This document shows positions 19,536-23,603 of a stretch of 42,129 bases of DNA, one piece after another. This DNA is from Erysipelotrichaceae bacterium. Lineage in GTDB: Bacteria; Bacillota_I; Bacilli_A; RFN20; CAG-826. The translations under genes were made by a program, and so were the position numbers. The DNA lies in NCBI GenBank assembly GCA_022777645.1, contig JALFFX010000024.1, positions 1 to 42,129 on the forward strand, read 5' to 3'. The first letter of the stretch is position 1, and each line of letters opens with the position of its first letter. The notes under the pieces are model-generated. The model had not been told where the DNA came from. It searched no databases and saw only the letters and a program-made list of their open reading frames with translations.

Positions 19536-21731
19536 ATGAAAATTGTAGATGTTTTAATTGAAAGAAAAATACAATCATTAAATCGTCCTTTTTCTTATGT
19601 TGTTAAAGACGATGCATTAATTGAAGTGGGTGAACGCGTTTTAGTTCCTTTTAACAATAAAAATATTGTCGGTTATGTGATTAATGTAACAAAATCTGAT
19701 AAATCAATAGCAGAACTTGAAAAGGAATTTGGCTATAAATTATTTGAAGTTAGAAAAATTATTGATGAAAAGCCTCTTTTAACACCGGAATTAATTTTGC
19801 TTGCTAATGAAATTAAAAATTATTATTTAGCGCCCTATATTTCTATTCTTCAAGCAATGCTTCCCCTTTCATTAAAACCGACATCATCTTCACTTAAGGG
19901 TCCAAAAATTGCCTATGAATATTTTGTGAAGATTGTATCTGATAACGAAGACAATCTAACTCCAAAACAAATTGAATTATTACGACTTGTCAAAAACAAT
20001 GGTGAGGTTAATAAAAAAGATATAAAATCACCTTCAATATTAAAAAAATTAATTGATAATAATCATCTTCAAATCATAAAAAAAGAAAAGAAGAGACTTG
20101 TTATTAACGCCACAAAAGAGCAAAAGAATTTTGTTTTGACAAATGAACAAAATCAAGCGATAGAATCAGTGCTTCATTCCAAACAAAATGTCACTTTATT
20201 GCAAGGCATTACTGGTTGTGGAAAAACAGAAATATATCTTTCTCTTGCTGAAAAAGTTATTGAAACTGGCAAAAATGTATTGATATTAGTTCCAGAAATA
20301 TCATTAACTCCAATCATGGTTAATAATGTCTATTCTCGTTTTAACGAGAAAGTCGCAATTCTTCATAGCGGTCTTACCAATGCCGAAAGATATGATGAAT
20401 ATCGCAAGATTTTAAATAAGGAAGTTAATGTTGTTGTCGGTACAAGAAGTGCGATTTTCGCCCCACTTGATAACATCGGATTAATCATTATTGATGAAGA
20501 GCATTCCGAATCATATAAGCAAGATAATTTACCATATTATCACGCTAGAGAAGTGGCAATAATGCGTTCAAAAATTAATAACGCAAAAGTGTTATTGGGA
20601 AGTGCAACACCATCTTTTGAATCGAAAACAAAAGCGATGAAAGGCATATATAATTTTATAAAAATAGATAAGCGAATTAACAAACTAAAATTACCTGAAA
20701 CATTAATTGTTGATATGTCTAAATCGATGAATTTAAGTCGTGATTCATATCTCTTTTCAAAACCATTAATTTCAGCAATAAATGAAGCATTAGCAAGAAA
20801 AGAACAAATAATTTTATTGCTTAATCGCCGCGGTTATTCCACTTATGTTTCTTGCCGTAAGTGTGGTCATATTTTTAAATGTCCAAACTGTGATATCGCA
20901 TTAACTTATCATAAAAATGATAAAATGCTTAAATGTCATCATTGTGGCCATGTCGAACTAATGAGCGAATATTGTCCAGAATGTGGCTCAAATTATATTG
21001 CTTATACTGGTTTTGGCTCTGAAAAAATTGTCTCGGAAGTCAATCGATTATTCCCATCTGCTCGCGTCCTTCGTCTTGATAGTGATGTTAGTGAAGTTAG
21101 GGGCAATATTAAGAAAGCAATCGCCTCATTTAGCAATTATGAAGCAGACATTTTAGTTGGCACTCAAATGATTGCAAAAGGTCACGATTTTCCTCGTGTC
21201 ACTTTAGTGGGTATTGTCCTTGCTGATGTTGGATTATCCTTGCCTTCTTTTAGATCGAGTGAAAGAGTGTTTCAACTCATCACTCAAGCCATTGGTAGAA
21301 GCGGTAGAAGCGATTTAAGTGGTAAGGCTATTATTCAAACATATTTGCCGAATCATTATTCAATATTGCTTGCAAGCAAGCAAAATTATGATGCATTTTT
21401 CAATTATGAAATGAGAATTAGGCATATTCAACAATATCCTCCATTTTCATTTTTACTCTCAATTGAGGTAAGCGCCAAAAACGAAGAATACGTGATTTTA
21501 GCAGCGAATGATATCGTCAATAATTTAAATTCAAAACTCCAAGACGAAGCAACAATTTTAGGCCCTGTCGCCCCATATTTTGCCTATCAAAATAACACTT
21601 ATAAAAGACTTATATTAATAAAATATAAAAATAGTGATAAAATAAAACAAGAGATAAATAAATTGCTGGAAACATTTAAATTCAATAACGTCGTAAACGT
21701 GAAAATAAATGTTGATCCATATGATTTTTAA
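19536..21731 (+). CDS. priA: Primosomal replication helicase PriA
   Basis: 3'-5' DExH helicase that restarts stalled forks by loading DnaB. The 731 residues are in the range of Firmicute PriA. The N-terminus (3'-DNA binding) reads VLIERKIQSLNRPFSYVV; Walker A is GITGCGKTE (residues 223-231); the DEEH box follows; the zinc region contains eight cysteines arranged as four CxxC pairs; helicase motifs V/VI are GTQMIAKGHDFPRV and QAIGRSGR. Preceded by AAGGGCG. High confidence. Confidence 0.95.
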   Translation: MKIVDVLIERKIQSLNRPFSYVVKDDALIEVGERVLVPFNNKNIVGYVINVTKSDKSIAELEKEFGYKLFEVRKIIDEKPLLTPELILLANEIKNYYLAPYISILQAMLPLSLKPTSSSLKGPKIAYEYFVKIVSDNEDNLTPKQIELLRLVKNNGEVNKKDIKSPSILKKLIDNNHLQIIKKEKKRLVINATKEQKNFVLTNEQNQAIESVLHSKQNVTLLQGITGCGKTEIYLSLAEKVIETGKNVLILVPEISLTPIMVNNVYSRFNEKVAILHSGLTNAERYDEYRKILNKEVNVVVGTRSAIFAPLDNIGLIIIDEEHSESYKQDNLPYYHAREVAIMRSKINNAKVLLGSATPSFESKTKAMKGIYNFIKIDKRINKLKLPETLIVDMSKSMNLSRDSYLFSKPLISAINEALARKEQIILLLNRRGYSTYVSCRKCGHIFKCPNCDIALTYHKNDKMLKCHHCGHVELMSEYCPECGSNYIAYTGFGSEKIVSEVNRLFPSARVLRLDSDVSEVRGNIKKAIASFSNYEADILVGTQMIAKGHDFPRVTLVGIVLADVGLSLPSFRSSERVFQLITQAIGRSGRSDLSGKAIIQTYLPNHYSILLASKQNYDAFFNYEMRIRHIQQYPPFSFLLSIEVSAKNEEYVILAANDIVNNLNSKLQDEATILGPVAPYFAYQNNTYKRLILIKYKNSDKIKQEINKLLETFKFNNVVNVKINVDPYDF

Positions 21732-21744
21732 GAGGTAGAAAAGC

Positions 21745-22353
21745 ATGATTACAATTTCTGTTATAGGTCTTGATCAATATGTTGTTGGTCATTATTCAAA
21801 ACAACACAGTAAAAATTTAGCCGCTTTGTTTGAAACAAGCGAAGACAATATATCTTTTATTGCCCCAGACTGTTATATATTCCATAATGGGGTTGAACAA
21901 ACAAGTTGGAACAGTATTGTTCGTGTAACTGCTCCAAGACAATTTGAAAAATTAGAAGCTAATGTTGCTAAATATTTATTAAAAACATTAAAACAATTTT
22001 CCATCAATATTCGCGTTGAATTTTTCTATTTCGACAAGAATCATTGTTATGAATTCGTCAACAACGAATACCCTCACTTCATCAAAGAAGAAAACGTTGT
22101 TAACGTTGAAGAAGGCGAATTAGAAGAAGGCGAAGAAATATATGATGGAAATATTTTTGAAGAATTCGCACCCGAATTAAGCAAAAAGGAGGAAGGTGGA
22201 CATTGTCATTGTCATGATGACTGCGATTGCGACGATGATTGCGACTGTGATTGTGATTGCGACTGCGATTGTGATTGCGATTGCGACTGCGGTGATGACT
22301 GCGATTGTGATGATGATTGTGACTGCGAATGTTCGTGCCACCATAAGCATTAA
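21745..22353 (+). CDS. Unknown protein with a Cys-Asp repeat tail, probable metal binder
   Basis: A 202-residue protein in three parts. Residues 1-115 form a small alpha/beta domain resembling the DUF1904/tautomerase-like fold (weak call). Residues 116-150 are an acidic linker rich in Glu. Residues 152-202 form a tail with 19 cysteines, mostly alternating with aspartate: nine uninterrupted Cys-Asp-type units, then further CDC and CDCECSC groups, framed by histidines (HCHCH at the start, CHHKH at the end). Such a tail should bind soft or borderline metals in many thiolate-carboxylate sites, in a metallothionein-like way. Codons alternate between TGC/TGT and GAC/GAT, so the repeat is held at protein level rather than being a fresh slippage tract. 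It sits where def and fmt occur in Bacillus and overlaps rsmB (TAATG). Function unknown. Confidence 0.5.
   Translation: MITISVIGLDQYVVGHYSKQHSKNLAALFETSEDNISFIAPDCYIFHNGVEQTSWNSIVRVTAPRQFEKLEANVAKYLLKTLKQFSINIRVEFFYFDKNHCYEFVNNEYPHFIKEENVVNVEEGELEEGEEIYDGNIFEEFAPELSKKEEGGHCHCHDDCDCDDDCDCDCDCDCDCDCDCDCGDDCDCDDDCDCECSCHHKH
22199..22350 (+). repeat. Six-base TGYGAY tandem-like repeat encoding the Cys-Asp tail
   Basis: Degenerate TG(C/T)GA(C/T) units, densest at 22238-22290, interrupted by GGTGATGAC and GATGATGAT. Third-position variation is irregular, arguing for coding selection. The unit could still expand or contract by slippage. Confidence 0.8.
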
Positions 22354-23603
22354 TGAAAGAAATTGTATTAGCTAATCAAGTTTTAAACGAAATCATCTTT
22401 GAAGGCGTATCTTTCAAAAAAGCCTTGAAAAATGTTTTTGCTGAAAATTATAAAGACCGTAAGCAAGCTTCGATTGTCTCTATTTTTGTTGGTTGTGCAT
22501 TAAGACACAATCTCCTTTTCAAAAAAGTTTTAGAAAACGTTAAATTTGTTGAAAAAGATCCTGATGAAAATCTTTTATTTTTAGCGTTGGCGAACAAATT
22601 TTTCCTCCATCGCTTAGATGAAAATCAACTTCATGATTTTGTAAAAAAACAATTAGGCGAAAAATATACACCAGAAATTGAAAAGATTTTAAAATATGAT
22701 GGAAAAATTAACGAACTTGTCGATGTTGAAAAAGATAGTTTTGAAAGTGTCTCGATTCGTTTTAATACTCCAGTTTGGCTTGTGAAAATGTGGAAGAACC
22801 ATTTTGGCACAAGAAATTCTTTTAAATTATTGAAAACAAATATTTCTGCAGATAAAACTTATCTTCGTTACAATCCATGTTTTGCTAGACCAGTTGAATT
22901 GGATGATGCTTCTTTGTTTAAACAAAGCGAAGTTGAAAATGTCTATGAATATATTGGTAAAGAATCATATAAACGTCTTGAAGGATATCAAAAGAATGCT
23001 TTATTTGTTTTAAAGCCTGTTATTAAAGAATTGTTTGATAAATACATTAATCCGTTAAGTGAACAAATTAGTTTGTACGCTAACGAAGATGAATATTTAA
23101 TCAAAGAATTACACGCTCAATCAAATAACAAACAAGGCATAAATGTCGTTGTCTCAAAACTAGATGAACACGTCGAATCACAAAGATATATTCGCGTTAA
23201 CAAAATAACAAATATCAATTTATTTGAAGCAAATGAAATTTATGGTTATAAAGTCGGAATTACTTCTCCTCAAGATTTAGTAATTGTTAATCCAACATCA
23301 TCATCATTTAATAAGATTCGTTCCTTGCCTGATTATTTGCTTCATTTTGATCCTCAAAATCTCGATAAATATATAGCGAAACAAAAAGAAGTCTTAAAAG
23401 ACTTATCTACATTTGTAAATGATGGCGGTATTCTTATTTATATGGTTGATACCTTAAATAAAAAAGAATCTTTAAGTGTTGTTTCATCATTCCTTCTTAA
23501 CAATCCAGAATTTGAACTAATTGATGAAAGACAAATTTTCCCATTTGAAGATGAAGATGTTGCATTATATTATGCGGTAATGAAAAAAGAAATTCAGAAA
23601 TGA
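22353..23603 (+). CDS. RsmB-like protein lacking catalytic cysteines
   Basis: Lies in the rsmB position and is collinear with RsmB (16S rRNA m5C967 methyltransferase): a NusB-like helical N-terminus (about 1-130), the SVSIRFNTPVWLVKMWKNHFG linker (about 130-150), then a methyltransferase-like domain. The catalytic features are gone. The SAM loop expected as CAAPGGKT reads as an unrelated polar stretch; motif IV DAPCSGTG reads VNPTSSSF, so the PC cysteine is Thr; motif VI YxTCS reads YMVDT, so the second cysteine is lost. RSLPD and the QxEIL-like helix survive. With 416 residues and no frameshift it looks like a maintained pseudoenzyme, perhaps an rRNA- or ribosome-binding factor. The start overlaps the upstream stop (TAATG). 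Confidence 0.7.
   Translation: MKEIVLANQVLNEIIFEGVSFKKALKNVFAENYKDRKQASIVSIFVGCALRHNLLFKKVLENVKFVEKDPDENLLFLALANKFFLHRLDENQLHDFVKKQLGEKYTPEIEKILKYDGKINELVDVEKDSFESVSIRFNTPVWLVKMWKNHFGTRNSFKLLKTNISADKTYLRYNPCFARPVELDDASLFKQSEVENVYEYIGKESYKRLEGYQKNALFVLKPVIKELFDKYINPLSEQISLYANEDEYLIKELHAQSNNKQGINVVVSKLDEHVESQRYIRVNKITNINLFEANEIYGYKVGITSPQDLVIVNPTSSSFNKIRSLPDYLLHFDPQNLDKYIAKQKEVLKDLSTFVNDGGILIYMVDTLNKKESLSVVSSFLLNNPEFELIDERQIFPFEDEDVALYYAVMKKEIQK

Follow-up and report, generated by a model that had tools for sequence, protein, structure and literature searches.

We describe a 202-residue protein with a DUF1904-like domain, encoded in the window (the whole 42,129-nucleotide stretch of DNA that was analysed), whose last 50 residues appear to be a chelating tail that has been under selection and would work like the tail of SlyD on an unrelated fold. 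The tail probably buffers or stores metal, with a housekeeping protein of the tautomerase fold as its scaffold.

The gene (21745..22353, + strand) was defined by its open reading frame and translation from an ATG start, and direct reading of the sequence located a Shine-Dalgarno-like AAGAGGT (21730..21736, + strand) 8 bases 5' of the ATG, overlapping the end of priA. The tail comprises residues 153–202 (22201..22350, + strand) and contains 19 Cys, 21 Asp, 6 His, and one residue each of Glu, Gly, Ser, and Lys; it is predicted to be disordered (pLDDT <50). With a mean Cys content of 1.19% in the large proteins of the window, the probability of finding at least 19 Cys in 50 residues is approximately 6e-24. 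A Cys-Asp-rich tail with 19 cysteines over the last 50 or so residues, as claimed in a preliminary description of this DNA, was thus confirmed by counting. The end given there, 22350, was also correct, but the start, 22199, was two bases early, since residues 153–202 correspond to 22201–22350. The same description regarded the tail as an alternating Cys-Asp polymer with flanking histidines. Strict alternation was found only in residues 166–182 (22240..22290, + strand), an uninterrupted (Cys-Asp)8-Cys run of 17 residues, whereas the flanks are mixtures of His, Cys, and Asp (HCHCH..., CDDDC, and ECSCHHKH). The pattern CDCDCDCD occurs in the window's own genome in the tailed gene only, and the second-longest C[DE] run, found in the set of 148 relatives, has a length of 6.

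The N-terminal part of the protein (residues 1–119; 21745..22101, + strand) was modelled with AlphaFold2 and compared with known structures by Foldseek. The model, for which the window protein was aligned with public relatives (folding of the single sequence gave a pLDDT of 39 only), had pLDDT values of about 80–93 across most of residues 1–100 and the secondary structure E-H-E-E-H-E, i.e. the two beta-alpha-beta units that the tautomerase superfamily requires. The first-ranked Foldseek match was 4m1a (DUF1904, Sebaldella; E 5.9e-6) and the second was 1u9d (Vibrio; E 1.5e-5), which we take to be a DUF1904 structure as well; the matches below these were MIF/tautomerase structures. The Pfam DUF1904 profile (PF08921) gave 17.4 bits (E 0.006) with the window protein, which is below its gathering threshold of 24.1 bits, and weak matches in 12 of 15 family members, the best with E 1.3e-4. 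The profile stops at approximately residue 103, leaving the C-terminal extension and the tail outside. A search of PDB sequences with the window protein returned spurious matches to designed repeat proteins only, and the literature that was searched mentions DUF1904 in passing only.

Residue 2 is Ile in 128 and Val in 20 of the 148 relatives, and Ile in the window protein. As Met1 is never followed by the catalytic Pro1, a classical tautomerase mechanism is unlikely. The part of the tautomerase literature available to us describes non-Pro1 members of the superfamily, which are uncharacterised, share the fold and lack the N-terminal proline as the window protein does, and it also describes trimers formed by members with two beta-alpha-beta units; a metal-binding tail, as proposed for the window protein, is found on no member described in that part of the source (PMC5818174). 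Judged from the model, the domain is a divergent, non-Pro1 protein of the DUF1904/tautomerase fold. We call it DUF1904-like and, because the Pfam cut-off was not reached, do not file it as a DUF1904 member. We dropped the hypothesis that the gene substitutes for an absent def, as deformylase matches are present elsewhere in the genome.

The preliminary description had called the protein conserved-looking, and the domain was indeed found in almost every genome sampled from its family (186/196; 133/146 in the order). No copy was found in genomes sampled from other orders of this class, and relatives were not found in plasmid records. At loci with enough flanking sequence, the gene (X) occupies the operon slot gmk-(priA)-X-(rsmB)-rlmN: where priA is absent gmk precedes it, and where rsmB is absent rlmN follows. 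This fixed slot and the family-wide presence indicate a vertically inherited housekeeping gene. The neighbours in the window are priA, rsmB, rlmN, and further housekeeping genes. No metal gene adjoins the tailed gene, and a search of the window against Rfam revealed no riboswitch; both points count against the metal-buffer reading.

Between the domain and the tail lie an acidic linker (residues 120–131; 22102..22137, + strand), which alignment of the tails identified as the insertion site of His/Cys clusters in other lineages, and the conserved segment IYDGNIFEEFAPEL (residues 132–145; 22138..22179, + strand) with a YxGNxF motif. This motif, kept in 143 of the 148 relatives, tailed or tail-less, is a candidate docking motif; the short helix predicted at residues 139–145 has low confidence. 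The comparison of tails, as had been proposed in the preliminary description, covered 148 distinct relatives, which were scored as carrying a cluster if they contained at least five Cys plus His within 20 residues. A Cys/His/acid cluster was present in 54 of them, after the motif in 35 (two rows labelled X being counted here), before it in the linker in 19, and at both sites in none; the other 94 had no cluster. Thus, L016 has HHCHCHDEGHECECGDDCDCEDGDCDCEEGECCCHHKH after the motif, L053 and L055 have DECDDEECEEHHHHHHEE and HHHHHHH before it, and L116, from another genus, has the metallothionein-like MCECGHQHVCCNGKSPACGKFCACGERC followed by CCEDDDCDCDCGCDHDHHHKH. His-only or His-dominated clusters are frequent (L049, L055, L152). 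In genus g6 (L116, L123, L134, L139), a metallothionein-like block, MCECGHQHVCCNGKSPACGKxCACGERC, is followed by a CD/H-rich end, so that one tail holds two kinds of chelating module.

Many relatives, including L007 and L023–L027 of the same genus, do without a tail, which is therefore dispensable to the family. On a quick tree of the domain, the state of the cluster changes about 30 times, and the gains and losses were thus repeated; as the 119 columns of this tree resolve little, only five changes between absence and presence are forced by well-supported branches alone. The simplest reading of these sequences, with their repeated changes at two sites, is convergence on a chelating stretch.

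The conserved motif beside the tail raises the possibility of a metallochaperone that docks by YxGNxF and feeds a specific metalloenzyme from its tail, in the manner of SlyD and HypB with nickel enzymes. SlyD belongs to the FKBP-type prolyl isomerases. Its tail in Escherichia coli and Helicobacter pylori is an unstructured, variable C-terminus rich in His, Cys, Asp, and Glu, absent in some homologues, which binds up to seven Ni(II) ions (PMC7055735), and this provides a precedent both for a chaperone and for a chelating buffer. The window protein likewise carries a predicted-disordered, His/Cys/Asp/Glu-rich C-terminus on a folded housekeeping protein, but its tail is dominated by Cys and Asp with few His, and its carrier is of the tautomerase fold; Pfam found no FKBP domain in it, and the fold differs. 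A client gene linked to the locus was not found, and the motif is kept in members without a chelating stretch, so it must serve something else too. We therefore regard a dedicated chaperone as unlikely. A role in buffering or storage fits better, given that the family can do without the tail, which also varies, changes its place, and recurs on unrelated carriers.

It is also possible, in principle, that the tail is a neutral low-complexity expansion, arising through TGYGAY hexamer slippage in the last part of a gene whose product accepts any C-terminus. The exact (CD)n run of the window occurs in one genome only, so its length cannot be compared between relatives; this counts against the metal-buffer reading and in favour of neutrality, as do the relatives without a tail. 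The highly variable tail length likewise favours neutrality. Tandem Repeats Finder (TRF) reported periods of 6, 18, and 24 bp, which suggest block duplications; all are degenerate (63–73% matches), and the tail is hence not a clean microsatellite. Tail-less close homologues, or homologues varying randomly in composition, had been named in the preliminary description as signs of a neutral microsatellite. The former do exist (e.g. L007 at 63% domain identity, and L023–L027), whereas composition and cysteine positions turned out to be constrained. In ten pairs of sister species, substitutions affected 6 of 71 Cys columns, compared with 107 of the remaining 387 (Fisher p 0.0003), a contrast flattered by alignment programs, which favour matched Cys; 20 of 65 retained Cys codons had changed silently. 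The gap-free pair L009/L014 retained 11/11 Cys while other residues changed.

Codon choice in the window tail itself (TGC 11, TGT 8, GAT 14, and GAC 7) is in line with that of the surrounding genes (Fisher p 0.46 and 0.08). In the repeat core, the minority silent base is present in 12 of 37 codons, and a single codon encodes a residue other than Cys or Asp. When a perfect (TGCGAT)n repeat was left to decay neutrally in simulations, this pattern never arose over the range reported, although copying of mixed blocks of several codons, for which the 18- and 24-bp periods give a hint, would reduce the number of mutations needed. The earlier argument that irregular synonymous codons point to selection on the protein was thereby supported. 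Neutral expansion is improbable, since cysteines are kept between sister species while their codons drift silently, the same residue classes recur at two sites and on other proteins, and silent variants far outnumber the single departure from Cys and Asp; slippage may have supplied the length but leaves the retention unexplained. The comparative pattern, in which stretches composed mostly of C, H, D, E, and G occur at two sites and keep their Cys while silent positions drift, fits selection for metal chelation in which length is held only loosely, and speaks against a microsatellite evolving neutrally. The length of the tail was probably made by slippage and its chemistry most likely kept by selection.

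In the preliminary description, the tail was taken for a metal-binding or redox-buffer module unlike ordinary metallothioneins. Chelation accords with the comparative pattern, which is as expected under selection, whereas the redox alternative gathered no support. The high thiol density speaks for a thiol redox buffer or oxidant scavenger in place of a metal store; however, the His-only and His-dominated clusters of L049, L055, and L152 would bind metal but could not buffer as thiols do, and Cys alternating with Asp or Glu together with His is a ligand pattern, making this reading very unlikely. As to metallothioneins, the bacterial proteins SmtA, MymT, and PsdMT are rich in Cys, use His as co-ligand and form metal-thiolate clusters (PMC7387436). 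The window tail is similarly Cys-rich with His, and metal-thiolate clusters would be expected in it; its C-x-C spacing is also typical of metallothioneins. The earlier claim holds for the architecture, as the tail is part of a 202-residue protein with a folded domain and not a small stand-alone protein, and uses Asp as spacer. Neither Pfam nor NCBIfam matched the window protein to a metallothionein family, and the hits that the tail gave to MSCRAMM SD-repeat proteins in NCBIfam were discarded as low-complexity artefacts. Since the defining features of SlyD and of metallothioneins are absent from it, the window protein was assigned to neither.

A chemical parallel to the Cys-Asp run, and a precedent for chelation by it, is the synthetic phytochelatin EC20, a translated (Glu-Cys)20-Gly that chelates Cd, Hg, Zn, and other metals in bacteria (PMC4611968). 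Both are ribosomally made alternating polymers of an acidic residue and Cys, but EC20 is man-made and contains Glu, whereas the window tail is a natural appendage of a domain and contains Asp. Literature searches for Cys-Asp repeats returned nothing relevant.

Two further alternatives concern the surroundings of the gene. The stop codon TAA shares bases with the ATG of the gene that follows, an rsmB-like gene identified from the list of open reading frames and synteny (22353..23603, + strand), to form TAATG, and the tail contains no clear ribosome-binding site. Pausing of the ribosome on the Cys-rich end could tune a translationally coupled rsmB, but this is highly improbable, because rlmN and not rsmB follows the gene in the tailed relatives L009, L014, L016, L021, and L022, and clusters also occur inside the protein, before the motif. 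The radical SAM maturase PapB forms thioether linkages between Cys and Asp (PMC9413430), and another genome of the same family encodes a 103-residue Cys/Asp/Asn-rich peptide (DCDCNCDCDC...CDCDCDCDCNCN; L167:1264-1575, + strand) 3' of a radical SAM gene starting at 278, a candidate ranthipeptide-like Cys-Asp RiPP. That the window tail, with its Cys/Asp composition, is such a substrate is hardly credible, as it is carried by a folded protein of 150 residues with no adjacent maturase, leader, peptidase, or exporter, the nearby radical SAM gene is by sequence and operon order presumably rlmN, and the His-only clusters of relatives offer nothing to link.

The patterns C[DE]C[DE]C[DE]C and C[DE]CGC were searched for in other proteins of the family, and the same kind of tail was found on histidyl-tRNA synthetase (HisRS; L180, L182). 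Among the HisRS C-termini of 91 genomes of the family, variable tails rich in Cys, His, Asp, and Glu, with as many as 15 Cys or 15 His, occur in many genera (L180, L182, L222–L311; e.g. GCCCGDECEGDDCCCGHHHDHEEGHGEHCCGHHHDHEEGHEGHCCCGHHHKDDGDN in G125) and are missing in others, including the genomes read from the window's genus; a second family of the class shows the same mixture (L192–L202, L204–L206, L208). In G589, G593, G596, G602, G613, G615, and other genomes of this second family, the matched HisRS frame holds one in-frame TAG or TAA, which may be a sequencing error, a pseudogene, recoding, or the end of the gene. A third unrelated carrier is a DUF1292 protein (L315 in genome G076; Pfam E 3.7e-9), which ends in EECECGCDEHDHEHDCECHHCHGDKKN. 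The HisRS and DUF1292 cases suggest that chelating tails were grafted repeatedly in this lineage. DUF1904-like and HisRS tails co-occur somewhat more often than expected (20/32 versus 15/44, Fisher p 0.02) in genomes that are not a random sample; a real link was not accepted, as it is inseparable from kinship, with three independent pairs on supported branches. Genome G049 also encodes two large extracellular-looking proteins with long internal Cys-Glu/Asp-rich stretches (L179 and L184), one 5'-nucleotidase-like and one with a lipoprotein-like start (L320).

In the metal-buffer reading, the window protein would be a cytosolic, probably trimeric housekeeping protein without catalytic Pro1, whose disordered C-terminus combines the conserved docking-like motif with a lineage-variable chelating tail, grown in this species into a His-flanked (Cys-Asp)n string. 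Clusters of soft or borderline divalent metals, most likely zinc and possibly Cd, Cu(I), Ni, or Co, would form on the Cys thiolates with help from Asp and His. The domain would supply oligomerisation and localisation, with three tails per trimer if it trimerises like its fold relatives, and the putative benefit would come from a metal buffer or store, perhaps passing metal on.

More tentatively, we consider it possible that these small-genome Bacilli have repeatedly grafted Cys/Asp/Glu/His chelating tails on unrelated housekeeping proteins (the DUF1904-like protein, HisRS, and a DUF1292 protein), giving a distributed metal buffer that replaces metallothionein, of which the near-pure Cys-Asp tail of the window protein would be the most extreme case. 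Nickel-chaperone tails are known, but neither a natural acid-Cys polymer on a tautomerase-fold protein nor repeated tail grafting onto HisRS and other proteins within a single bacterial lineage is described in the literature that was searched. If true, the tail would be a natural counterpart to the engineered synthetic phytochelatins and a model for the evolution of disordered chelating tails, and the distributed buffer would offer a testable idea on how metal is buffered in reduced gut genomes.
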